The position numbers and the translations under genes are program-made. 64,000 nt of DNA from Leptodontidium sp. MPI-SDFR-AT-0119 (taxonomy: Eukaryota; Ascomycota; Leotiomycetes; Helotiales; Leptodontidiaceae). Below the pieces are notes generated by a model that was given only the letters and a program-made list of their open reading frames with translations, made no database searches and had not been told where the DNA came from. This document shows, piece after piece, positions 547-64,000 of the stretch (position 1 is its first letter; each line of letters begins with the position of its first letter). The stretch lies in the NCBI GenBank assembly GCA_020726505.1, contig JAHLEZ010000004.1, positions 2,728,001-2,792,000 on the forward strand. The letters are read 5' to 3'.

Positions 547-639
547 ATGATCTTTGACAACAGACAAGCAGGCAGTTGAGATTCACTTCCATTCAACCAA
601 TTCATGCCAGATCAATCCAATACCAATTCATCCACTTGA
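547..639 (+). promoter_or_regulatory. Two short upstream ORFs in the CAF-1 leader
   Basis: Two small ATG-initiated ORFs precede the CAF-1 large-subunit start at 686: one from 547 to 579 (10 codons plus stop) and one from 604 to 639 (11 codons plus stop). If the transcript starts upstream of them they could reduce translation of the main ORF. The transcription start is not visible, so their presence in the mRNA is an inference. Confidence 0.3.
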
Positions 640-685
640 ATCACGAACGGGCTTTGTCGCCTACAAATTAACGACCGCGTTGCCC

Positions 686-2891
686 ATGATGTCCATCGAA
701 GAGGGTTCACCGCGCCCTCGCTCTCTTAAGAGAGACCATGCGAGTTTCGAAGAGCCGGAATCAACAACCCAGGACCTCGAAAAAGCTTTCGTTGTACCAG
801 CAGATTTCGTAGAGAAGGAGAAGGGTGCTGAAGAAGACAACGCCCCCGCTGAATCACTACCAACACCTCCAGTCAGTATCGGTACAGGCACAAGCACAAC
901 AAGCACAACAAGCACAATCACCAAACGAGACACCAGTCCTACTCGAAGCACGACAGGTTCACTAACAGACGCTGGCACGACCACGCCTTCGAGAGACCAG
1001 TCTCCGAATCCAACTTCGAATAGTGCAGGCGATCAACCAACTATATCTATATCTACAGGCACATCCGACCTCCCTCCCCCTCCTCCTCCATCAGCCTTCG
1101 CTGCGATGAGTGCGGCTGGCTCTGCTCCTCCCCCGCCGCCACCGAAGAAGGTCAAGCTTAGTTTCCAGGAGAAGGAGATGAAGCGGATTAATAAGGAGAT
1201 TAAGGAGAGGGAGAAGGCTGAGGAGAAGGCGCGGAGGGATAAGGAGAAGCAGGTGCTTGCGGATGAGAAGGCGAGGAAGGATGTTGAGAAGGCCGAGGAG
1301 AAGGCACGTAAGGATGCTGAGAAGCAAGCACTTGCGGATGAGAAGGCGAGGAAAGATGTTGAGAAGGAAGCTGAGCGGAAGAGGAAAGAGGCTGAAAAGG
1401 CTGCCAAGGAAGAAAAGCGCAAGAAGAAGGAAGAGGAGAAGTTGAGGGCCGAGGAGGAAAAGAAGAAGAAGGAGAAGGCCCAGATGAAGTTGGGCAATTT
1501 CTTTACCATTCCTACGACGGCCCGTCCGAGAGGGTCGAGTGTAGATTCGAAGGGTAGGACATCGATGAGTCCGGCTCCACCGTCATCCAATGTCAGTGCC
1601 GCGGTTGCCAGCCCAATGAAGACGCCCAACAAGCCAGAGAAGTCAGCCTACGAGAAGATGTTCCCGGATTTCTACATTCAACAAGGTGTTACGGTAGCAC
1701 CCATCAACCGATTCGAACGAGACGAGGAGGCTGTTGGAGCAATCGAGAGTCTACTTGATAGCTACTTACTCGGCAACAGAAGCCCAGGCCGGCAACGCAC
1801 TTTCGATGCACCTTCTCTCTTTCACACCTCGTCCGCCCACAATGTACCCCGCGGCAAACAATATGTACCTGTAAGAGAGATCATGTCCGATTTCTATTCT
1901 GGCAATTCTGCAAAACCTATCGACCTCACCACCGACTCCCAAAACTCCCAAATCAAGAGGTCCGGCAGTTCATTAAAGGGAATCCCCATGAAGATCTTGC
2001 ACTTTCAAGAAGATGTTCGACCACCATATCGAGGTACCTATACCAGCCAACCTGTCAACGGTATGTCAAAATTGGCCAGGAATCCATTGAGGAGAGACCT
2101 TCCAAACACCGATTACGATTATGACAGTGAGGCAGAATGGGTTCAAGATGATGAGGATGCAGAGGATCTGAAGAGTGAAGGAGATGAGGAAGAGGAGCTT
2201 GGCGATGATGAAGATATGGATGATTTCCTCGATGACGAGAATGACGAGACTGCAAATTCTAGGAGACTGGTCTTACAGGGTGATCTGGAGCCAGTGTCCA
2301 CTGGACTTTGCTGGGAGGATAGGAAGAGAAGAAATTCGAATGTCAAGATGATTGCGTATCGAATGGAAGTCATTCTTGGTATGTTGATCTTTGCATCTTT
2401 GACTAGGCTCCACTAACTTTTCAGATCCATCTATCAAATCCATTGATCCTTTCTCAACAGCATACTGGGACCCTCCACCATCAACCAGAACTTCCATGGA
2501 GCCACCTCGTATCCCTCTCAACACAATGAAATCTACATCCGCCAACATCAACAGCCTCTTCACACCCAAGTCATCCTCCACCACCGATTTCGTGAAGTCT
2601 CCATCCATTCTCAACCCACCAACCCTCACCTCATATATCTCATCACAACAAACCGCCAAACCTGCAAGCAAAGACACGAAACCCAAGAAGACCATCTCAC
2701 CAGACGATATGCCTGCCTTCAAAGCTGCTATCCAAGGCTCTGATCTCAGTAAAGTCGGTCTGATTGAGGTTTTGAAGAAGAAATTCCCCGGCCGACCTGC
2801 AGCTGCTATCAAGGGTACCCTGGAGACTGTTGCGAAGAGGGTTGGTGTTAAGGAGGTTGATAAGCGCTGGGTCTTGATTGATTTGCAGTGA
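686..2891 (+). CDS. rlf2: Chromatin assembly factor 1 large subunit (p150/Cac1/Rlf2-like)
   Basis: Two exons, 686-2378 and 2425-2891, joined by a 46-nt intron (GTATGT donor, CTAAC branch, TCAG acceptor); the frame is kept and gives 719 aa. CAF-1 deposits H3-H4 on newly replicated DNA through PCNA. Domain order fits the family: a disordered S/T/P-rich N-terminus, a highly charged K/E/R coiled coil (about residues 155-265), a canonical PCNA-interacting box QMKLGNFF at 266-273, the conserved RPPY segment, a long acidic stretch split from the rest by the intron, and a C-terminal winged-helix-like segment. I start at 686 (ATG ATG pair) because the upstream open frame has no ATG. A second ATG at 689 is equally possible. 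The next gene converges on it about 1 kb downstream. Confidence 0.9.
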
Positions 2892-50401: not shown

Positions 50402-52936
50402 ATGCATTTCCAAATAGGTCTCGCCACAGCTTTGACTGCCGCAGGCGCTCTCGCAGTCCCTGTCTCAACCGACGCATCCAATAGCACCTCTCCATGCGGA
50501 ATCATCACCCAGCAAATCAATGAATTTTACAGCGATAAATCCAGTATGGCTCACTTTGATATCTCTGTGTCCCTGTGCTGATAATGTTCAGACGAGCCAA
50601 AGAACTTTCTCTTGAAGCCATCTCTTGCATACGCATGCCTTCAATCGTCTGGAATAGACAACCAACTTGCCGCAAGCTACGTCGTGGAATTGAAGAAATA
50701 TATCCAATTTCAATCTTCCATTGCTTACCTGAAGAGTATGGCTCTCTTATCCCACCCTGTTTCGCTGACGGTGCTAATTCACTCTTGCAGATCCCTCAGC
50801 AGACTACTTCTATCCCGCTGTTGACCTTCTTGGAGGCTTGGATGACATGGCGAGCAAAGCCGCAGCCGGCGAGTTTACCAGTCAGTACGAGTTTGACCTC
50901 GCATTGAACAAGCTGGTATACTCTGTCAAGGACGGGCATACATTTCTTTCCACTTGCACATCTGGCACGATCTCTTTTCAGAGAGGGCTTGAACCCCTTC
51001 CCTTTGTCTCTGTTACTGAGGACGGCACATCCGCCCCCAAAGTCTATTTGCTAGGTAACACGGAGATGAATCTACTTCCTACTTCTGTGCTGATCCACAA
51101 AAGATGATATCTACGCTGCATCAAACAATTTCTCGGTGTCAAGCGTCGAAACTATCAATGGCGACGACGTTGGTGCCGTTCTAGACACTTCTGCTGAGGA
51201 CTTAACATCCGATCCGGATGCGAACTATAACAGACTTATGTGGAATTATGCTTCAGGGCCGGTCTCAGGGTAAGTGTGGGGAAACTAGAAGGATGTAGTC
51301 AAGTGCTGACCAATTTTCAGATCTTTCAATGGATTGTTCTCGATTCTCAGTACCTACCAATACCCAGGCGATTTCACGAACATCACCTTTTCTAACGGCA
51401 CAACACTTTCGGTTGAGAACATAGAATTCATCCCGACAGGGACCTGGGACCTTACGATTGTTGATGGGAATTCATTCACGCAGTACTTTTGTGTTGCTCC
51501 AGCAAATCCAAGTCCCACCACGTCCTCCGCATCGCCAACGTCAACTTCTAGCCCAACTTTTGGTACAACAGCACCCACACTCAGAGGTTACCCATTTCTA
51601 CCTGTTGTCAAGGACCCCAACAATCAAGTTGCCGGATACTATCTGAACAACACTGGACACGAAGACACAGCCATCCTTCGCATTGGTACCTTTGCCAATG
51701 AGACGGCAAACCAGGGAGACATTGACCCCACTGAATCATTCGTTAACACCACAAGAGACTTCCTTACCGCAGTTCGAGCCGACAACAAGACGAAGCTGAT
51801 TATCGATGTGAGCGGCAATGGTGGTGGAAACACGATTCTTCCCAATGAAGTTGTAAGTCTACAATCATTCTTACGACTTTCCGCGACTGACGTACACCAG
51901 TTTCGACGAATCTTCCCCAATATCGAACCGTATGGGCTGGCACGTCTGCGTGGTAACCCGGCTGCAGAGATATACGGAGAAGCCTTTGCTGCCGTCCCAG
52001 ACGAAGCTCTCGTAGTCACTTTGAGTGACAACGACACCGTCCAGAACATTAAAGCTAGGGTATTCACCTCGCCCTGGAGCTATCGAAGTTGGGTGACTGA
52101 GGATTTACAAAATTACACCGGATGGTCCAGTGGCGATAATCCATATTACCCCCCAGTAGAGAACAATGGGGACAATTTTACCGCCAGCGGTAGAATCCCC
52201 ACAAACAGTACGCTCTACACTGAAACTACAGGTGGTCTGGTTCTTTACGGAACTCCCGCAGAGCCAGCAACAGAGCCGCAGCTGTTCACTCCAGAAAATG
52301 TCATCGTGCTGACTGATGGCATCTGCGCCTCCGCATGCTCCATCTTGACCGAATTCCTCACTCGCGAAGCAAACGTCAAGACAATCGTGGTAGGCGGTCG
52401 CCCACAAGAGGGTCCTATGCACCATCGGCGGTACCAAGGGAGCTCAAGCCTACACCTTCAACAACTTTGCAACCCAGACAGCCTATCTAAATAGCCCTGT
52501 CGTTGGCCCCTACATTTCAGATGACCTCGCAGCCAAAGCTAACGCCACTCTCCCCGGACTTGTCAACCTACCTCTCGGCTCTCCCCACAGTCTCGCCAAC
52601 TATGGTATAAACTTGCGGGACAACATTCCACCAGGAGACGATGCTGGCATCCCACTGTAATTCGTCTTCGAGCCTGCAAGCTGCCGCATCTACTACACTC
52701 CCTAGACTGTCATCAACCCTTTGACGCTTTGGTTATAGGTTCATGATATTGCTTGGAACGGAGGGAAGTGTAACTATGGGAGCATCGACAGCGATGTATC
52801 GACTAACGGGTCTGGCGTGAACGTTCCAAGTGGTAACAATAGCACCGCTCCACCGACGGGCAGTGGCGTGGCTGAAATGGGTGTCAACATGGGTTTCGTC
52901 TTTGCTGCTCTTTCTGCGGCTTTGGTCGTCATGTGA
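50402..52936 (+). pseudogene. Decayed secreted S41-family peptidase gene
   Basis: Six exons can still be joined in frame: 50402-50543, 50592-50735, 50791-51054, 51104-51269, 51321-51852 and 51901 onward. They encode a signal peptide (GLATALTAAGALAVPVS), an N-terminal domain with PSADYFYPAVDLLGGLDD and YSVKDGHTFLS, and the S41 core with KLIIDVSGNGGG and, near the catalytic serine, LTDGICASACSILTEF. After GRPQEGPM (about 52421) the frame is lost and resumes in another one (IGGTKGAQAYTF). In that frame TAA at 52658, TAG at 52703 and TAG at 52736 interrupt otherwise clean family sequence. It ends in an S/G/N-rich tail with a hydrophobic end (FVFAALSAALVVM), like a GPI signal. Secreted S41 peptidases of this kind also occur in fungal dikaritin clusters. 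Confidence 0.82.
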
Positions 52937-53559: not shown

Positions 53560-55402
53560 TTATACTTCATACTCATCAAATTCCACAGCATTACTAGAAG
53601 ACCTCGGTTCAAAAGGCTCCTTTACCCATGTGGCGAGATACGTAGCTACTAAAGCTAACACCCCTCCAAGACGAAGAACCCATACCGAATCAAAAGCTGA
53701 CCCTTGAACCTTTTCCTTGCCTGTTAGATCGAGAGCGAGAGACACAATTCCAACTCCAAAACACATGAAGATTTGGGGTAGACAGACAAAGAAATTATGA
53801 ATGCCATAGACGATCCCCAGTTGGCTCGAGCTGCTCGACACCTTATCATGATCCCTGGAATCAAATTCATCTCCTGTCTCATTATCACTGCCACCACTAT
53901 CTCCCCTGGGTTTCTCACACAGCCGTGACATCTTAGACGACTCGACACCAAGCAGAGCATATGGTATCCATGCTGAGGCAGCGCCACTGAACCCCACAAC
54001 GCTGAAGAGGGCCACTGAGCCAATGGAGGAGGAAATCAGGAATGTGCTCAGCATCGCAATGCTCAATAAGCCAAGTGACCCCTTCCAAAGACCGCAAATG
54101 CTAACGGCCTTGGTACTTGATACCAGTTTCGGCAGTAGAACTCCCATGCACAAGGCAACAATGCTGTAGCTAAGCAGAGTAGCGGAGCCTATATCAAAAT
54201 CGAAACGACTTGCAGGGGTCTCAGGGATTGCCGCTCGTAGCTCTGATTTGCCTAGTACTATTAACAGAGATTCTGGAGATTGTAGCACTAGTTCAACACC
54301 CACGGAGATTGTTCACATAGCTGTTATCAAGTAAGCGTTCTTTACTCCACAGTTCCAGAAGGGAGGGAGCTACTCACGTTTTGACATAGAACAAGAACGG
54401 AAACCAACTACCCCATGCAAAAAAACTGTACGAGGCAAACATTTCGTATCTGGCTGGACCTGCAGAGAAGCAATTTGCCATTGACCCACAGACTCGCTGG
54501 TCTGAACTCTTTTCTGGCACGGGCTTGGTCTTGTGTCGTGAGACAACTGATAATAGAAGTCGTTGTCAACAGAAAAGCTGCCAATAGGCTCATAGTCTTG
54601 AATGCTGATTGACCAGAATTGTATCGGTCATTCATACAGGCGGAGAGATTCCCCAATACGGCAGCCAGGTTGCTATACGAGCCAGCCCAGGCACTAGCTC
54701 GTATATGCTCAGTTGGATCACACTGATCAGAAATAAGAGCACGTAACCCTACTTGAACAGCCTGAGCAGAAGTCCAAAATAAATAGGCGGCACAGACGCT
54801 CAGCACCACTACTACTGAGCGGTCAGCAGTATCTGATATAGATCCAGTCAGGAAAATCGCAACCCCATCCGCCCATGCTATTATCAACATTGAAGCCACC
54901 ATGAACATAGCCCCAATAATGATGAAAGGCTTCCGCCTTCCCCAGGATGTTGTAATCTGGTCGCTCCATGTCCCGAAGTATGGCTGGAAAGCCGCACCAG
55001 CTATCGGTCCCATCAATATCGTGATTACAATTTCGGTTTGGCTGAAATGGAGATCCTGGAAATGGGTCTGTTACGATCAACATATGCATCCCACTACGAT
55101 GGCAACAAAGCTGGTGATTGGGGTTGCTCTTACTACTCCGTGGCTGATCATCGTGGTAAAAATGAACTGTAAACTAAACCATACGTCAGTAGGTGAATTC
55201 TACTTCAAAATTATGATATCTTACCCTGCAAACCTGCCGTGGTGCGGAAATGAGGCGAGGGCCGTGGTTGATCAGGAATCAGGGTCTCCATCTGCACACT
55301 CTCACAATCCAATGTTTGATGCATTCCGATATTCGTTCTTGATTGGCATTCGTATTCATCGAAATGGCCCTGAGAATGCAATAGAATTTCTTCTTTAAGC
55401 AT
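53560..55402 (-). pseudogene. Decayed GPH/sucrose-type sugar transporter gene
   Basis: Minus strand, four exon blocks: 55402-55225, 55166-55134, 55067-54378 and 54320-53560. Membrane segments and signature fit fungal SUT-like GPH carriers: QTEIVITILMGPIAGAAFQP, FGTWSDQITTSWGRRKPFI, IRASAWAGSYSNLAAVLGN, SQIRNVCLVQFF, AWGSWFPFLFYVKT and WIPYALLGVE. Three single-base insertions break it: GGG before the first donor (near 55224-55226), T7 on the minus strand (54419-54425), and AA near 54312. Removing one base at each gives a continuous frame of about 552 aa. Such carriers move disaccharides with protons. Loss by mutation is likely, though all three changes sit in homopolymers and should be confirmed. 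Confidence 0.72.
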
Positions 55403-55844: not shown

Positions 55845-55858
55845 CCCCCCCCCCCCCC
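55845..55858 (+). repeat. C14 homopolymer upstream of the precursor gene
   Basis: Fourteen consecutive C, about 175 bp before the start codon of the repeat-peptide precursor. Confidence 0.9.
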
Positions 55859-56031: not shown

Positions 56032-56457
56032 ATGCGATTCTCCTCCACTCTTTTTGTGAGCTTTCTTGCTGCGACAAATCTTGCGGTAGCAGCGCCACTT
56101 CCACTTACCCCCGATGCAATGGGAGTAGCTGCTCGTGCCCCAGAGCCGGAACCCGCCAACTTGGTGGATATTGCAGCTCGCGCTCTCGTGGGCTCGGAGG
56201 GTCAAGCAGAGGTGGACAAGAGGGAGCCCCAGCGAGATGCCACGATGTACAAGAGGCAACGAAATGCTACGATGTACAAGAGGCAACGCAATGCCACCAT
56301 GTACAAGAAGGACGAGTCAAGCGCTGCTGCTCCTGCTCCCGAGGACTCGGAGGGCCAAGCCGAGGTGGAGAAGAGGGAGCCCCAGCGAGATGCCACGATG
56401 TACAAGAAGGACGAGTCAAGCATTGCAGCTAGAGCCCCTGAGCCCAAAGACAACTAG
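56032..56457 (+). CDS. Secreted repeat-peptide precursor, candidate RiPP or Kex2-processed peptide
   Basis: 141 aa, single coding exon. Residues 1-20 are a signal peptide (MRFSSTLFVSFLAATNLAVA). After an A/E/P-rich pro-region come four related units, each ending in a dibasic site: EPQRDATMYKR (65-75), QRNATMYKR (76-84), QRNATMYKK (85-93) and EPQRDATMYKK (116-126). KR pairs at 63-64 and 114-115 precede the first and fourth units. A kexin would therefore release short peptides ending in NATMY or DATMY. This is the layout of alpha-pheromone, KEP and dikaritin RiPP precursors. There is no tryptophan- or cysteine-containing core as in most filamentous-fungal alpha-pheromones. The start at 56032 is the ATG that begins the signal peptide; the frame upstream is open but not signal-like. 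Nearby HxxHC proteins, peptidases and a bANK regulator support a RiPP reading. The product is unknown. Confidence 0.75.
   Translation: MRFSSTLFVSFLAATNLAVAAPLPLTPDAMGVAARAPEPEPANLVDIAARALVGSEGQAEVDKREPQRDATMYKRQRNATMYKRQRNATMYKKDESSAAAPAPEDSEGQAEVEKREPQRDATMYKKDESSIAARAPEPKDN
56194..56409 (+). repeat. Internal direct repeats of the precursor gene
   Basis: A unit of about 60 bp starting TCGGAGGG at 56194 recurs at 56347 with a few substitutions. A smaller unit ending ATGTACAAG occurs four times in total (codons for residues 65-75, 76-84, 85-93 and 116-126). The pattern suggests unit duplication and contraction, as in other repeat-peptide precursors. Confidence 0.85.
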
Positions 56458-56480
56458 ACACCGAAGCTCGTCTGCCGCAG

Positions 56481-56539
56481 GTACGGTTTATAGCCCAAAC
56501 CCAGTTCAATCAAGCTAACACTACTTTTTCTCTCCGTAG
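56481..56539 (+). other. Probable intron in the precursor 3' UTR
   Basis: CAG|GTACGG donor, GCTAAC branch site, CT-rich tract and CGTAG acceptor, 59 nt, beginning 23 nt after the stop codon. All parts match the introns of neighbouring genes. It does not change the protein. Confidence 0.5.
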
Positions 56540-56602
56540 TGCATATTGTTGGAATCGAAAATTCACGAGTGCTAGGCAGCCTAGGCTATTGATGGGTCAT
56601 TG

Positions 56603-56604
<2 letters not shown>

Positions 56605-56634
<30 letters not shown>
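56605..56634 (+). repeat. G30 homopolymer downstream of the precursor gene
   Basis: Thirty consecutive G, about 150 bp after the precursor stop. It is by far the longest homopolymer in the window. It may fold as G-quadruplex DNA or RNA, and its exact length is likely unreliable. Confidence 0.9.
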
Positions 56635-56635
<1 letters not shown>

Positions 56636-57523
56636 GCTTGGTCAAGGCAGAAGGAGAATCTTGTTTATGGAGGGTATGCTTGTTAGTGGGGGAAGGATCA
56701 CTCATTTGGTTGTTATCACAAGTATATATATGTTGAGGTTACAGAAAGCTTAGTCTGGACTTCAAAGTATACTGCTTTGAATGTCAATGAAGTTTAGTAT
56801 TCAGCATATGATCTGTCCAAGAGCTTCAAGTGGTGTGAACTTTGTGATCTTTGATTTCTGCCATCCCAACGTTGTTAAGCCATCATGGAACAACATAAAA
56901 TTGCAGAGGCTCTTTGCTACAGCATTTTTGTCTGCTCTACCACTACGTTGTCTCCTCCTATTGACTGAAACGAACATAATCGCAGTTAGCAGCCTATGAG
57001 AATAGAGTGTAGCGTCGTTCTGTCACAAACGGCTGTTCGATGCGAATTTTGGGGCCAGCAAAGTCGAACTCTCACCTTTATGTGGTGCAAGCTGAAATCT
57101 TCTATTGCAACTAGTTTTAATTAGAGATAGCCGGCAAGAGTCGCATTCGTGCATCGGGTCCAACACTACAATTACAGCGAATGATACGCAGTCGATGGGA
57201 GTCATAAGAGAGCGAGAATGGGAGGGAGGAGCAGGTCAATCCAAGGGAGTTTCGTGGCCTCTCCGACCGGCGAAGATTGGTAGGCTCGAGCCTCACTCGA
57301 TACTGCAACAGCAAGCTTTTCTATCAACTTGACAATCGTGTCACCACCTCGATAAAAAACCAATGCCAATTTTGGTAGCTCACTTTGGACTTACACACAG
57401 GTCATTGGGCAAGAACGCAGATTTTGTGATTTGCTTGTCTTGAAAACCGCCCTCATCAACGTCCAACTGGAATCATCATCTCCAGCTACTGTATACTCCC
57501 AACTTCCAATTATTCGCCCACGT

Positions 57524-58264
57524 TTATTCAAATCCGCTTCTGATATGACAACCAGCAAACCCGACATGAACTTTGATCGGCATTGTTCTGAAGTCAGGTC
57601 CCCTTTCTGACATTTTGACCAAAAAATCCGAGCAATGCATCGTGTGCTCTTCATCAACAACAATTGAGTCCAAATAGTTCCGTCCCTCCATAAACGCCTT
57701 GAATTGTTTCCGCCACAGGAAGCTGCAATGAATTATATGGTCTCTCTCATTCGTGTAGTACACCGGTGTTCGTCCCAATGCGGTGATGTCCAAGAGTTCG
57801 GTATGGTTCGCGTCGGCGTATCCGAACCAAGACCCATCCGACTGATATTCCTTGATTGCAGACTCATCGATACACTGTCCGGGTATCCAATGGTTACTCA
57901 ATATATCATATTCACAGCCCCGGGCTTCCGCTTCCTCCACCGATCTTCCGCAATTGACAAAGTTTGCTCCTGGGATGATGGAACTGTTGCCTTCAGACTG
58001 CCCGGAAAAGTACGACGTAGAGTTGGAGATCGGCAACAGAAGCAAATAGAATGCCCAAAACAAGGAGGTGAAGATGAAGACCAGACTATGAGATCCAATA
58101 GACTGCGAAAAGTGACGTTGTTGTTCCAACCATCCTCCTCTACGCCACAATTCAAGACCACGCATCCCTGCTTGAGCTTTCACAGCCTCGTTCTCCTCCA
58201 AGAAGGGCTCCGACTCGCTGTTAGACGACATGAAGGCTTTTTCGATTGGTAAGTCGGTAGTCAT
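57524..58264 (-). CDS. HxxHC-motif single-pass membrane protein (UstYa-like)
   Basis: Intronless, 246 aa, starting at ATG 58264. A cytosolic N-terminus of about 58 residues precedes one transmembrane segment (LVFIFTSLFWAFYLLLLPI, about 61-79). The lumenal domain has cysteines at 105, 117 and 131 (C-x11-C-x13-C) with WIP at 126-128, then two HxxHC motifs, HIIHC at 176-180 and HTMHC at 207-211, and a VGFAGC segment at 234-239. Twin HxxHC motifs are the hallmark of UstYa (DUF3328) proteins, which catalyse oxidative cyclisation in dikaritin RiPP pathways. The rest resembles a large related fungal family whose chemistry is less clear, so I call it UstYa-like with reservation. It is divergent from the bANK regulator. 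Confidence 0.75.
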   Translation of the reverse strand: MTTDLPIEKAFMSSNSESEPFLEENEAVKAQAGMRGLELWRRGGWLEQQRHFSQSIGSHSLVFIFTSLFWAFYLLLLPISNSTSYFSGQSEGNSSIIPGANFVNCGRSVEEAEARGCEYDILSNHWIPGQCIDESAIKEYQSDGSWFGYADANHTELLDITALGRTPVYYTNERDHIIHCSFLWRKQFKAFMEGRNYLDSIVVDEEHTMHCSDFLVKMSERGPDFRTMPIKVHVGFAGCHIRSGFE

Positions 58265-59209
58265 TCAGACTTCAGTCATTCGTGAGTCGTGACTGCTGTT
58301 CTCTGGGGTCCTGAGAGTGTATTTAGAGGGAATTCACTAGCTCTGACTCTATATAAAAGGATACAGACTCGCTGTGTGACATATTTCCACAACTTCGAAT
58401 CCAAATTGTGTCACTCTATCTACGACTGACTAAAAAAACAGTAGAACTTCTCATTCGGTAATCAGATTACGCTGTCCGCCTGTAATACATGTCATAGAAT
58501 AGCATGAGGCATTAGGTACAGTAATACGATGCTTTGGGGGCCGACCAGTGGACCAATTGAAAGATAGAAAAGCCTGTTAGGTTGCATTGCCGCGGCATTT
58601 ACGCCCCTCCCTTTCGGCCTAACGCTGTCCACTTTTGTTGGTTTTGATAGATGGCAAAAGAAGAGATAAGGGATATTCCGCTGCGGAGAATTGGCCCTTC
58701 GTGGCCCCAAACATGTACATACATGTACACTATTGCAAAAGAGGCAGGCGTTGCAGTAGAGTACCACTGTTGTACATGTCAAGGCTCATCCTGCAGGGCC
58801 AAGAAGACTGGGCGGGAGCTTGACCATTGGTGGATGCGGCGTACCACTGCGGCGGAATCCAATCATCATCGCTTTACAGTGTTAAGCGACCATCAACTGC
58901 CTACAAAGGCACCTCGGTATCTACATTCATACTTCAGGATTGGCTTCCAAAATTGAGTGTCTGCATCAAACCTCCTCACTGGCCAATAGGGGAAGATATT
59001 CTTATCCGGCCGGGAGAACTTCTAAATAAGCGAAATGCCCCATTGCGAAATGCCAGTGAAATGCTACCTGCCTTCGTACAAATCTGCAATACTCCAATAC
59101 TTGTGCAGCTCAAGCCTTCCGTGCGCCACTCGTCCCGTCCCGTCCGCCTCCCACCCTCTTTCGCGGAGGTCATTCGTGATCTATCACGTCTCTTACTATT
59201 CGAAATACC
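58265..59209. promoter_or_regulatory. Divergent promoter, HxxHC protein and bANK regulator
   Basis: 945 bp between two start codons transcribed outwards. A TATA-like string (TATATAAA on the plus strand, 58350-58357) lies about 87 bp before the minus-strand start. The open frame 58827-59297 overlaps the bANK start in another frame and is not supported. Confidence 0.4.
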
Positions 59210-60159
59210 ATGGAGAGGGACCACTCAATTCTGGAAGACAGCTGTGACCGCGGGGGTATGGAGGCCAAAGAACGCAAACGAGTGCAAAATCGGATAGCTC
59301 AGCGCAATTATCGTAAGTGAAATCCACCCTCATCTCCGAAACATCAAGTCATTCTTCCAGGCCGCAATCAAAAAGAACGCCTTCGGGCACTGGAAAAAGC
59401 TGTCAACCACCTTGCGAAAGTACCACCGGTCACCCTGGCGAGCAACAAGAGTGTTCCTGTCGGGATGGTCCCTTCTCCATGCGATCAAATTTGGAATGAC
59501 GCTGGAGAACAGCGTGGCTCGGATTTGAATTGCGTCCAAAATAACGTAGTTGATGACGTTAGTAGAACCCCCCCCCCCCGGGTCCCCCCATCTTTTTAGT
59601 CGTTCAGATTTTCATCTGGCGAAAAGAGTTGTGCACAGGCCAGATTCTGGTGACCATGCAGTCCGAATTGGATACCAATCTCTTTACCGAGTCAAAACCA
59701 ACTCTAATATTTCAACAGAATCTTGGATTAGATTGGGAAGAGGGGAGTCTGGAACCAGAAACGGTATTCAAGCCGGTGCGGCCAGCGTTGCATCGAGCAG
59801 TGTTGGCAGGGAACGAGCCTGTTTGTAGGATGTTGTTGGATAAGGGAGCTTACGTTGGAAAGCAAGACACCAATGGACAGACTCCGCTACACTTGGCGGT
59901 AGACACTGGCAGGGAGGAGATCCTCAAGCTGTTCTTAGATGGAGGAAATCAAAATGCCAGAGATTGTATGGGCCGGACAGCATTGTTCAATGCCATAGCA
60001 AGTGAGAACAAGAGGGTTTTAAGATTGCTACTGGATGCAGAGATCGATATTGATTGCAAGGACGCTCTAGGGGAGACTGCCCTTCATGTAGCAGTGGAAA
60101 CTGGGGTCGATTGGATAATTCGTCTGCTTCTGGAATATGGTGCAGATGTAGATGCATGA
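59210..60159 (+). CDS. bANK-type transcription factor (bZIP basic region plus ankyrin repeats)
   Basis: Three exons: 59210-59312, 59361-59545 and 59608-60159; 279 aa. An alternative second donor at 59558 also keeps frame. The N-terminal basic region is KERKRVQNRIAQRNYR, spliced to RNQKERLRALEKAV, with the family's N..(A/Q)..R spacing but no clear long leucine zipper after it. The C-terminal half has four ankyrin repeats (LHRAVLAGNEPVCRMLLDKGA; TPLHLAVDTGREEILKLFLDGG; TALFNAIASENKRVLRLLLDAE; TALHVAVETGVDWIIRLLLEYGADV). This basic-plus-ankyrin plan is that of ToxE, the regulator of the HC-toxin cluster of Cochliobolus, and of other bANK proteins in metabolite clusters. A C12 tract lies in the second intron. 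It is probably a pathway regulator for the surrounding genes, by position. Confidence 0.8.
59568..59579 (+). repeat. C12 homopolymer inside a bANK intron
   Basis: Twelve consecutive C within the second intron, between donor and acceptor. If it were exonic the bZIP frame would stop at once, which supports the intron call. Confidence 0.85.
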
Positions 60160-60560
60160 GCAAGAAAGCTCATCATAAAAAATTAAAACAAAATTCAAAC
60201 GTCAAAAAGCAAAATCGCCTGGAGCACCTTCTATCGCGCTCCTCCGTCATCTGGTAACGGTGCAAGGGACATCAGGACTTGCAGCCACATACACATACTC
60301 CATGCAAAGTATTTGCAATGTCCTTAATGTTGCAACATTAATTGGCCCTCACTTACACAAGTGAGATGAGACAGAACAGATGAGATGACGTCAAAAGATA
60401 ATCATGCATCAACGAACACAGGTAGCTCAAATTTGCTAACTATACCGCTGTACAGTTGTACTAGCAAAATGAGACCCCCTAGACATATCTTGTAGAACAT
60501 AAAAGACTAAGTGTTGAAGCATTTCAGGCCGAAGACGCAAGTAGGTCAGGCAAGGCATTT

Positions 60561-62963
60561 TCAGAACAACCCTAATTCCTGATAGAAAGCTTCCGGATTT
60601 GGCTCTCGACCCAAGTAGTCTTCAAGCATCTTCATCTCATCTTTGCTACCGCCATTTTCTAGCACCATACGTCGGTATCGACGACCCTCTGTAGCGTCCA
60701 TTGGATTGGATTGAAAGAATGAGCGAAAAATGTCTGATGAGTACATTTGCGAGCTATGCAAAGGTGCAAACATTAGAGCGGTTTGGTCTTTGTCTGAGGG
60801 GTGTGAGAAGGGGTTAAATAGAATAATTACCAAAGATATCCATATATCCCTGCATCGTAGTCCCCAAGTAGTTGCCCAAATGTCACTTCATGGTGCCCCC
60901 ACTCGTCACCGTCACCTTGTGAATCAGGCCCGTCTATCGGCATGATGTTGCTTCGAAGTGTATTCCAAATTTTCGAAGTATTCAAATTCGCCGCCGCCTC
61001 GGGGGATTCGAGTTGATGGACAGTCATGTCAAAGATAGCGGCATGCAGCGTGACCAGAGTGAAGATAGCGCTATTAACGTTCTTGGTTCGAAGCAAATTC
61101 GCTATTATATCATCCGTGATCTTCTCTGGTAAGTGCGCAAATTCTGAGTTGTTCTCAGCTTGACCTTCCTTCCATACCTGGAAGTACTCTGGCGAGAGTG
61201 TAGAATAATGCTGGCTGAGTGATTTCAAAGGCTCTGGTGACCAACACCAATTCTCGAGCAACTGGCTAGGCGCTTCACAGAAATCCACGACACACATGGT
61301 ACCATGATACCTCGCATATCTTGTTCTGCCCACGAGATCATGAATGCCGTGGCCCAGCTCATGGAATAGCACCACAACTTCGTCATGTTTGAGTAGGCTA
61401 GGTTTTTTGGTAGTTGGCTTGGAGAAATTGCACACTAAGGCTGTCGCCGGATAACTCCGCTGGCCCTCGGCGTCAATGAAGCCCTGGAGTTGTTAGTGTT
61501 TGTCATCAGCTTGGTATTCAACACGTACCGGCCGCAGATTGAAATTGGCAGCTTGTCCAAATTTATCTTGCCTAGGATGAAGATCAAGGTAAAGATAGCC
61601 AAGAAATTCTTCATCACTGCCTGTGTTCCAAGCAGAGAACATCTGAACATCCGGATGCCAAATAATATCGTTCCCGTTTCCAGTTTCCGCTAGCTTGTCT
61701 CGATCCTTGCCATCGATGGCAATGAATTCCATACCAAACAGCTTTTCAAACATCTCAAGCATATGCTTAATGGTGGTATTCAAGGGGAAATATTCTGCGA
61801 CATTCTGTACGTCAAATGAGAATTCCTTCTGCAACATGAGTCTCTGGTAGAATTTGTCGTCCCACATGTAATAGTGTCCATCAAATGGCTCTCCTCGGCA
61901 CTCCATATCGATCCTCTTAATCTCCTTCAATTTCTCAACTTCATTGAGACCTCTGGCTTTTAGCTTTGATTTCAGGTCCGCTAGGAAGGAATTGATAGTT
62001 TCGGGAGACTTGATCATTTTCTCTTCCAATCGAAAAGCCGCATGATTTTGATATCCGAGTAAACGAGCAGCTTCGTCACGAAGAACTAAGGCTTCTTTGA
62101 GGAGAGGCACGTTCTGCGTAACCTTGTTGGCGTTGGCAATCAAAAGCTGCCTTCTGGTGTCGCCATTTGTGGCGTGTTGAAGAACTGTAGAGACCTCAGG
62201 GAACTTAAAGGTCACTCGAATCTGGCCGGACTGTTCAGCTTCACCATGCTCAAATCCTGAGAGATCGTCTTTTGGAACACCTTCTAACTCCTTTTCAGAA
62301 AACCAGACCCCTCCCTTCTCACTAGTTAAATTCTTGCGGAATTCGATAGTGATCTGCCCAAGTCGCCTTTGGATCTCCTTGAAGCGGTCTCTCTCGCTGC
62401 CCATAGGCAGCCCCAGCCCATTTCGAATATAGCTCTATTGTACTATTAGCATGTATATTTCGTATTGTCTATGAATCAACGGTGGTGAGTCGAGAATAAA
62501 GGATTTGAGCTTTTGGTGCAGGGTAAATGAGATCATGGGACAAAATATGACATACCCTCTCCTCCTTCTCCAGAAAATGGCGAGATTGTGGATCAAGTTT
62601 TGCATTCTTCGCTAGCACTGCTTTGACGAGTTTGAAGATATCTTCTCTCATTGTTGTCTCAATGGAAAAGTCCTTGACGAGACCCTCAGCGCGTCTAGAT
62701 GCTGCGCGAAGCTCGCCATCTGCTGAGACGTGTTGGTAAAACTCCAAAACATGAGCTTCCTTCTGCCTGTTATTCTCGTCCTGGGCGAGTGGGAGGAGAG
62801 TATTTGCAAATGTTGCAGTGGAGGGGTGGACTTCTCCGACAACGGAGGCCTGAACTTTGCGAGATTGTTCGATCAATCGTTTGGCATCATCTAGAATAGA
62901 GCGAGGATCCGTCGTAAAAACCGGAGGCGCCTGGGGAGGCTTTTTCGGCGTGCTAGCTACCAT
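60561..62963 (-). CDS. M3-family metallo-oligopeptidase (thimet oligopeptidase/saccharolysin-like)
   Basis: Four exons: 62963-62556, 62434-61529, 61483-60831 and 60753-60561; 719 aa; all junctions keep frame. The zinc site is HELGH at 479-483 with the third ligand near E508 (DFCEAPSQLLENW), the standard M3 arrangement. Family segments include FRKNLTSE, LVCNFSKP, ARYHGT and YLGREPNPEAF at the C-terminus. No signal peptide or obvious mitochondrial presequence is seen, so it is probably cytosolic, where M3A enzymes cut short peptides. It is convergent with the bANK gene and divergent from a second HxxHC protein. Role in the candidate peptide cluster is possible but could equally be housekeeping. 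Confidence 0.88.
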
Positions 62964-63525
62964 GTCGCGAAACTGAAGACTCAACACAGATTGGGGATCT
63001 TTTCGCAGATTTTCGCTTCAAAGAATTTGCGTAGAAAGTTTTTGCGCTGTCAGGAATGCGCCGATAGCAATGTGCAAGACGGTGACCTTCGGCCTGAAAT
63101 GCCTCCATCCCCTGTCGCTGGGTAGCATCGCCTTATCGGCACGGGTTTACATATTGCTTCCCAGCCGCTTACGGGAACTAGGGTCACCAGAGGCACGGAT
63201 TTTAGCTGCTGCGTAAGTCGTTCAAAATAATCCCACTGTATTACGTGGTGCGTGTACTCCATACAAATCGAGTTCTGTGCATCCGCTCAAGACCAGTCAT
63301 AGTTCCGCTTACTTCAGAGGAATGGGGAAGAAAATTCATGACAACTAACTGGGTACGCTTCGTTGCTCTCCATATCTTACGTTACTTAAACCACTTTGAT
63401 TTTCAAAATACTACCTAATGTCTTCATGAAAAAGTACTTCAAACTCAAAGCTGCTCCCCCATCTTGATTCTTAGTTATTGGATTCTGCATCAGTATATGA
63501 TATTCAAGGTTATTGATTATACATC

Positions 63526-64000
63526 ATGATACCAGAAGTTGGGGGGTCGTCGCAGCCCACCTTCTTTCATCAACGCAACAAGAAAAACGCAATAATCTTT
63601 GTCATTTTTATGCTCGCCAACCTTTTCACATTTCTTGCCATCGTCCTCGCAAAGTGGTCTTTACACAACAACTTCAAATCCGTCACAGCGTCTGCAGGGA
63701 GTGTTCGCTCTCGGATATTTCACGATCCACTCCATGGTCCGTACATTACCTGCCCTGAGGACCCGGTACTGGCACGCCAGGAGAATTGCCACTTTGATCT
63801 CCTGGCAAATGGTTGGATCCCTTCGCCATGCTTTGATTCTGTACTGTATCACGATTTTATGGATGGCCGAGATTACGGTTTCTTTGAGGATATCCAGGGC
63901 AAGAGGCGAGTGGATCAAGAAGTCATTATGGAAGGCGACACATCCACATATCCAGAGGGGCTGTTCGTAACGTTTCATGAACACTTCGAGCATTGCCGCT
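63526..64000 (+). CDS. Second HxxHC membrane protein, cut by the window edge
   Basis: Frame open from ATG 63526 to the last base, 158 residues. One transmembrane segment (AIIFVIFMLANLFTFLAIVLA, about 22-42) precedes a lumenal domain with cysteines at 76, 88 and 102. The spacing C-x11-C-x13-C is the same as in the HxxHC protein at 57.5 kb, with the shared WIP before the third cysteine. The HxxHC motif HFEHC at 153-157 is followed by the edge, so a second motif cannot be checked. It is divergent from the M3 peptidase (562 bp between starts). A later ATG at 63610 lies inside the membrane segment, so 63526 is preferred. Probably UstYa-like, with the same reservation as the first copy. Confidence 0.75.
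   Translation, partial: MIPEVGGSSQPTFFHQRNKKNAIIFVIFMLANLFTFLAIVLAKWSLHNNFKSVTASAGSVRSRIFHDPLHGPYITCPEDPVLARQENCHFDLLANGWIPSPCFDSVLYHDFMDGRDYGFFEDIQGKRRVDQEVIMEGDTSTYPEGLFVTFHEHFEHCR

Follow-up and report, generated by a model that had tools for sequence, protein, structure and literature searches.

Organization of the locus

The window analysed here is a stretch of 64,000 bp from Leptodontidium sp. MPI-SDFR-AT-0119 (C34:2728001-2792000, in a genome of 77 Mb and 69 contigs). At its right end lie a gene for a Kex2-type repeat precursor and genes for membrane proteins with paired HxxHC motifs. The analysis also took in the next 56 kb beyond the right edge of the window, and positions above 64000 continue the window numbering. 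An earlier note on this DNA had proposed a cluster for a ribosomally synthesized and post-translationally modified peptide (RiPP), related to the fungal dikaritins, and had suggested following the contig rightwards for more oxidase genes. That extension turned up a third HxxHC gene and a true UstYa gene, both within 11 kb of the precursor, which strengthens the RiPP-type reading; together with the co-location of the HxxHC family and UstYa elsewhere in the genome, it bears out the core of the proposal. From sequence, we consider it likely that this is a RiPP cluster in which a precursor of QR[DN]ATMY units is cut by Kex2-type proteases and modified by UstYa and by three divergent HxxHC proteins, themselves likely copper oxidases. 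The gene inventory given previously is real overall (Table 1), with caveats for the frame of the bZIP-ankyrin gene and the break in the transporter.

The precursor gene, which is single copy in the genome, has the features of a Kex2-processed repeat protein (KEP). Its N-terminus is hydrophobic, like a signal peptide, by a hydrophobicity rule rather than SignalP, and four similar units are split by the dibasic sites KR, KR, KK and KK, which agrees with the secreted repeat precursor first described here. The units lie at 56230 (QRDATMY-KR), 56257 (QRNATMY-KR), 56284 (QRNATMY-KK) and 56383 (QRDATMY-KK). An EP spacer precedes two of the four (56230 and 56383), and a spacer stretch separates the fourth unit from the third. 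Of the five changes seen between the core units, four are synonymous, where a fraction of 0.206 would be expected (P 0.008), and the peptide therefore looks conserved. When 1090 members of the protein collection that share words with the precursor were compared, none scored as a relative at E ≤ 10. The UstYa gene is recognized by PF11807 (E 1.4e-26 on the last exon) and has the motifs HDLHC and HIDHC; its exons match the family without stops.

Table 1. Features of the locus in window numbering, and of the related cluster on contig C26
Feature	Position	Strand	Evidence or remark
S41 (CPAF-like) peptidase gene, decayed	50402-52936	+	Open reading frames (ORFs), PF03572, three-frame readout
SUT-like major facilitator superfamily (MFS) transporter (MFS_2/PUCC matches), frame broken	53560-55070 (mapped part)	-	PF13347, PF07690
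Kex2-type repeat precursor, 141 aa, four QR[DN]ATMY units	56032-56457	+	ORF, repeat scan
First repeat block, EP-QRDATMY-KR, QRNATMY-KR, QRNATMY-KK	56224-56310	+	
Second repeat block, EP-QRDATMY-KK	56377-56409	+	
HxxHC-1, membrane protein with a single transmembrane (TM) segment	57524-58264	-	Motifs, C-x11-C-x13-C; unrecognized by Pfam
bZIP-like N-terminal part of regulator	exons 59210-59312 + 59361-59599	+	bZIP_1 17.0 bits, below cut-off
Ankyrin-repeat part, probably of the same regulator	59566-60159	+	PF12796 E 2.5e-32
M3 (thimet/saccharolysin-type) oligopeptidase	60561-62963	-	PF01432; cluster membership uncertain
HxxHC-2	63526-64185 (crosses window end at 64000)	+	Family matches
HxxHC-3	64951-65631 (past window)	-	
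UstYa gene, several exons	66159-67283	+	PF11807; splicing by eye
Haem dehydratase (haem-containing aldoxime-dehydratase-like)	about 69496-70575 (L009:9496 to L010:575)	-	PF13816 E 6.1e-101
C26 cluster (L028, L029)	C26:97096-111731		Precursor, SUT-like MFS, four HxxHC genes
C26 repeat precursor, eight TKVKVD units	C26:97096-97549	-	Repeat scan; separate signal exon (splicing by eye)
C26 SUT-like MFS	C26:98.3-99.9 kb		
C26 HxxHC genes (four)	C26:100.6-111.7 kb		

The HxxHC family and its relation to UstYa

HxxHC-1 carries the motifs HIIHC and HTMHC. In both it and HxxHC-2, a single hydrophobic segment lies at the N-terminus and 31 residues separate the two HxxHC motifs; the spacing C-x11-C-x13-C is the same in both, as had been noticed from the sequence. 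Besides HxxHC-1 itself, the protein collection contains 44 of its relatives, with 39-76% identity (61% to a Cudoniella acicularis protein), and none of the 44 carries a precomputed Pfam domain. The identity to Cudoniella, like that of a UstYa paralogue on C45 to a Rutstroemia protein, would fit a leotiomycete source. The named relatives belong to what we take to be Leotio-, Sordario-, Euro-, Dothideo- and Lecanoromycetes. A first alignment held 19 of the 45 listed proteins and six rows of this genome; a wider one of 56 rows held 44 of the 45 (the window's own protein excluded) and 12 genome rows, with one row shorter than 150 aa dropped and one gene represented by two rows. In the wider alignment the motif residues are kept in 52-56 of the 56 rows, and C-x11-C-x13-C is present in 55. 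Two complete motifs occur in 51 rows, always 30-32 residues apart. The five other rows are P0002 (one substitution), P0045, L029:830-1471 and L039 (short or exon-cut) and L034 (a frame without the motif).

The HxxHC proteins had been likened to UstYa oxidases. By Pfam they are not UstYa members, and a sister-like family describes them instead. HxxHC-1 and HxxHC-2 match no Pfam family at E ≤ 1 (HxxHC-2 again none at E ≤ 5), and HxxHC-3 reaches 7.7 bits against PF11807, under the cut-off of 25 bits. All three proteins have the PF11807 layout of two HxxHC motifs behind one TM helix (by hydropathy only), and the UstYa/DUF3328 enzymes CctR, ApnU and AprY likewise have one TM helix followed by a luminal HxxHC(x)nHxxHC domain, a topology that is predicted for the present proteins. 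Unlike UstYa, the HxxHC family has C-x11-C-x13-C upstream of the motifs and a near-fixed spacing of 30-32 residues, and its motifs are not set in the contexts HC-L-x-x-[LI]-R and R-Q-x-[LI]-M-C that were read by eye from UstYa rows. The C-x11-C-x13-C pattern, in turn, was absent from the UstYa rows scored (0/16, several of them partial). We read the family as a distant sister of UstYa that lies outside it by the threshold of PF11807 itself.

No solved structure matched the HxxHC profile by sequence at E ≤ 1, and no description of a C-x11-C-x13-C/HxxHC family was found in the literature searched, which was mostly open-access. HxxHC-2, HxxHC-3 and several other members stand on very long branches of the family tree, the deep order of which is unusable. 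For UstYa relatives, a passage of PMC12435403 describes CctR (DUF3328) as a membrane-bound, copper- and oxygen-dependent dimer whose HxxHC domain is proposed to be inside the lumen of the organelle, and a passage of PMC12871659 treats two HXXHC motifs as a family-level marker of copper enzymes.

Distribution of family loci in the genome

Searches with four HxxHC protein queries, after neighbouring exon matches were merged, placed the family at 16 places in eight loci (on C34, C31, C26, C23, C12, C14, C3 and C1). One weak match (C1:6457045, E 0.0015) was dropped; if it is kept, the counts below become 4/9. UstYa gave 70 exon matches in 32 loci, and SUT-like MFS genes occur at eight loci. Four of the eight HxxHC loci lie within 10 kb of UstYa (C34, C31, C23 and C12; chance about 0.012 per locus, P 1.4e-6) and four within 10 kb of a SUT-like MFS gene (C34, C26, C23 and C12; chance about 0.003, P 4.4e-9), so that five adjoin UstYa, MFS or both. 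With C34 excluded the counts are 3/7 for each partner (P 6e-5 for UstYa and 8e-7 for MFS), and with a fivefold higher chance rate in addition P is 0.006 and 9e-5, respectively; these values overstate the true surprise, as the chance model spreads loci evenly over the genome.

Unspliced frames of 41 records (354 kb including overlaps, with no random background of comparable size) were scanned for hexamers repeated at dibasic sites. The records covered the HxxHC neighbourhoods, some UstYa loci, and the window with its right flank, at 20-40 kb per locus. Two real repeat precursors were found, one in the window and one on C26. Flags at window positions 551-2413 and 1182-1442 (coiled-coil or low-complexity frames) and in L037 (poly-Arg) were rejected as non-precursors.

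On C26, a precursor with eight TKVKVD units, a SUT-like MFS gene and four HxxHC genes lie together with two Zn2Cys6 stretches and an acyltransferase-3 gene. EP stands before five of the eight units (by eye). The units are identical as protein, and their DNA differs by eight synonymous changes; as the units were picked by exact peptide, a degraded unit would not have been counted, and none is visible in the precursor. The nearest PF11807 match is at C26:545 kb. The C26 cluster therefore shows that the HxxHC family and a repeat precursor co-occur without UstYa and with a core that lacks tyrosine. If the HxxHC proteins act on TKVKVD, which has no aromatic residue, oxidative chemistry would fall on Lys, Val, Thr or Asp side chains.

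These data also bear on the idea that the window holds a chance neighbourhood, an orphan repeat protein beside unrelated membrane proteins. The precursor is indeed an orphan, and most HxxHC loci yielded no repeat precursor (see below). The HxxHC genes nevertheless adjoin UstYa, MFS or both at five of eight loci, and two independent clusters combine precursor, HxxHC and MFS genes (C34 and C26). A chance neighbourhood is already disfavoured and seems to us very improbable.

At C31:376-398 kb (L024-L026), five UstYa exon matches and three HxxHC genes lie within 22 kb, and no repeat precursor was detected there. This locus also holds a small, Cys-rich, secreted-looking ORF (L025:5931-6341).

Peptidases, transporter and regulator

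The S41 peptidase gene has an open piece (51310-52494) with a PF03572 match (E 5.4e-08). The frame changes near 52420, where two frames overlap, and three in-frame stops follow within 52650-52760, from which we conclude that the gene is decayed. S41 paralogues exist elsewhere in the genome; the other listed relatives lie more than 15 kb from HxxHC or UstYa loci, and S41 was rejected as a recurring part. The mapped transporter (PF13347 E 2.1e-10, PF07690 E 8.8e-10) matches the MFS of the C26 cluster (E 5.5e-15, 27% identity). Its frame breaks near 54420, as judged by eye against the C26 transporter; this point is in a homopolymer, and the break may thus be an assembly error rather than decay. 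Of the earlier suggestion that both genes are decayed in an eroded cluster, the part concerning S41 clearly stands, whereas the transporter has only this one homopolymer frame break.

The M3 oligopeptidase proposed earlier is present as described: PF01432 matches over positions 1-395 and 395-456, and HELGH is intact. M3 loci fall within 10 kb of UstYa in two of nine cases (P 0.004). Without the focal locus the count is one of eight (P 0.08), and M3 is therefore no more than a possible recurring part. At C4:2600517-2608808, a UstYa exon is 160 bp away from an M3 match, and another UstYa follows after 6 kb; this may be a further peptide cluster.

For the regulator described as bZIP-ankyrin, the ankyrin stretch is clear (111.7 bits), but the bZIP-like stretch scores 17.0 bits against a Pfam cut-off of 27.6, and the two lie in different frames across a 12-C run (59568-59579). 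They are likely parts of one regulator gene. Other long homopolymers occur near the precursor and the regulator (14 C at 55845-55858 and 30 G at 56605-56634), and assembly length errors are possible at all three runs.

Comparison with dikaritins

Dikaritin clusters were compared by a five-part definition quoted in a passage of PMC12048977, with DUF3328 as the class-defining part in the 2021 definition. Like ustiloxin, phomopsin and asperipin-2a clusters, the window cluster has a repeat precursor with Kex2 sites and a core Tyr, UstYa, a transporter, an S41 remnant and a regulator. Specifically, the precursor has an N-terminal leader and a repeated core, and DUF3328 is represented by the one PF11807 gene, through which the cluster falls under the DUF3328-based definition of a dikaritin cluster. 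The candidates for the transporter or peptidase part are a frame-broken MFS, a decayed S41 (a part of the classic clusters according to an excerpt of PMC6514808) and an open M3. It differs from dikaritins in three HxxHC proteins outside PF11807, the M3 peptidase, the EP spacer and the core QR[DN]ATMY, and in having no tyrosinase nearby. The only PF00264 match on contig C34 is at C34:1864431, 0.9 Mb away. The earlier statement that tyrosinase and methyltransferase are missing from the window thus holds for tyrosinase; for methyltransferase, reading the long ORFs of 52-120 kb (continued numbering) by eye, with Pfam run on part of them, brought up no candidate. The same inspection of the long ORFs in the 56 kb to the right, some of them run against Pfam, revealed no methyltransferase or P450.

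One explanation of this gene content is that a classical dikaritin cluster of the ustiloxin/phomopsin type is eroding and no longer functions, its tyrosinase, S41 peptidase and transporter having been lost. The decayed S41, the broken transporter frame and the distance to the nearest tyrosinase on the contig are all expected under this explanation, and elsewhere in the genome UstYa does have a tyrosinase match no more than 5 kb away, at four loci (C45:1554-1560 kb, C4:1635-1640 kb, C56:744-749 kb and C12:1320-1322 kb), the C12 locus being also an HxxHC locus. Against it, the precursor, the three HxxHC genes and the M3 gene are open, the UstYa exons are stop-free and changes between the core units are mostly synonymous. 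In addition, the four cluster genes that an excerpt of PMC6514808 lists for asperipin-2a likewise include no tyrosinase, and the HxxHC loci on C26, C31 and C23, like that on C34, have no tyrosinase match; the absence of tyrosinase therefore looks like a type and not a loss. We regard erosion of a classical cluster as quite improbable. Instead, the window cluster is best read, on its gene content, as new in its enzyme set and not in principle, working like a tyrosinase-free dikaritin cluster. The four UstYa-tyrosinase loci are themselves candidate classic dikaritin clusters.

Comparison with pheromone precursors

KEPs, including alpha-pheromone precursors, share with the window precursor an N-terminal hydrophobic signal, tandem units between KR or KK and an X-Pro spacer. 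This raises the alternative that the product is an unmodified, linear, secreted signal peptide, processed as alpha-pheromones are by Kex2, Kex1 and Ste13, while the HxxHC and UstYa proteins act elsewhere. Units with and without EP behind a basic site do fit Ste13 trimming, which passages of PMC6339444 describe as an alpha-pheromone trait absent from the ustiloxin-type (ascomycete toxic cyclic peptide) precursors compared there. Furthermore, a search of the genome for one narrow pheromone motif, W-C-x-x-P-G-Q-P-C, gave no match and so located no other pheromone gene. The QR[DN]ATMY unit is nevertheless unlike a pheromone: it has no cysteine, whereas one pheromone subgroup has two conserved cysteines in its core. 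A passage of PMC7329392 states that mating-factor or pheromone genes almost never adjoin DUF3328 genes, with three exceptions, and that DUF3328 genes are enriched beside Kex2 repeat precursors and Tyr in the cores of these. Finally, the arrangement repeats on C26 with an unrelated core. An unmodified linear peptide is on balance unlikely.

Several observations weigh against a modified peptide and the proposed enzyme family, in addition to the Ste13-type signature just described. First, the link to UstYa is distant: the best PF11807 score of the family is 17.9 bits against a cut-off of 25 (17 family sequences, 15 genes), and profile-profile comparison of HxxHC with UstYa is weak (probability 11-35%, P 0.0004-0.003), although it aligns the double motif and the real comparisons scored 29.6 and 34.5, with none of ten column-shuffled controls above 18.7. 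Second, the HxxHC copies on C14, C3 and C1 adjoin neither UstYa nor MFS, and the chance model is uniform although biosynthetic genes cluster anyway. Third, six of the eight HxxHC loci have no repeat precursor in the scanned stretches (unspliced frames). The earlier note had held that conserved synteny with HxxHC and M3 genes lying without the precursor in most relatives would speak against a cluster; for the HxxHC loci, checked within this genome only, this is the pattern seen in the scanned stretches. Fourth, the C12 HxxHC locus has a single short tyrosinase match alongside, and the lack of tyrosinase is therefore no rule for the family. Finally, the S41 gene is dead and the transporter frame is broken, and the cluster may therefore not be fully active.

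Proposed pathway

In the modified-peptide pathway that we favour, the precursor would enter the secretory pathway and meet the HxxHC proteins there. By analogy with CctR, their luminal domains, each on one TM helix, may bind copper and oxidise the peptide; the tyrosine-containing QRxATMY would probably be oxidised at or to the Tyr ring. A tyrosinase would have no role here, as is the case for asperipin-2a. Kex2 would cut after KR or KK, and a Kex1-type carboxypeptidase would strip the basic residues. According to passages of PMC6339444, Kex2 cuts after KR or RR and less often KK, and Ste13 prefers X-A or X-P dipeptides behind a Kex2 site. A Ste13-type peptidase could thus remove EP, with the result that units with and without EP yield the same 7-mer; the mix of the two kinds of unit in both precursors makes sense because such removal would give uniform unit ends. 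The MFS protein would export the peptide and the bZIP-ankyrin protein would regulate the cluster. With S41 dead, peptide trimming may have passed to the M3 oligopeptidase, unless this enzyme is a bystander.

If this is correct, the known fungal peptide clusters gain a new kind of enzyme. The widespread family, made up of "hypothetical" fungal membrane proteins, would then mark clusters for ribosomal peptides, including some (C26) that lack DUF3328. A pheromone-like processing signature beside oxidase genes would also bear on the idea, put forward in a passage of PMC7329392, that modified peptides evolved from linear ones resembling mating factors. More tentatively, and with somewhat more doubt than conviction, we suggest that the family is a second copper peptide oxidase family, sister to UstYa, which defines a fungal RiPP class of its own with Kex2 and Ste13 processing, a dedicated SUT-like exporter, cores that can be tyrosine-free (TKVKVD) and clusters invisible to DUF3328 rules.

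Neighbouring genes

The haem dehydratase gene lies 2.2 kb past UstYa. PF13816 has only two loci in the genome; at the other (C12:406 kb) the closest UstYa is 34 kb away, and the gene was rejected as a recurring cluster part. Farther right are genes without an evident link to the cluster, namely MFS and short-chain dehydrogenase/reductase genes (by Pfam) and WSC-like, bZIP-like and F-box-like genes (by eye). Among the UstYa paralogues, one on C45 shares 91% identity with a Rutstroemia protein across 78% of its length.

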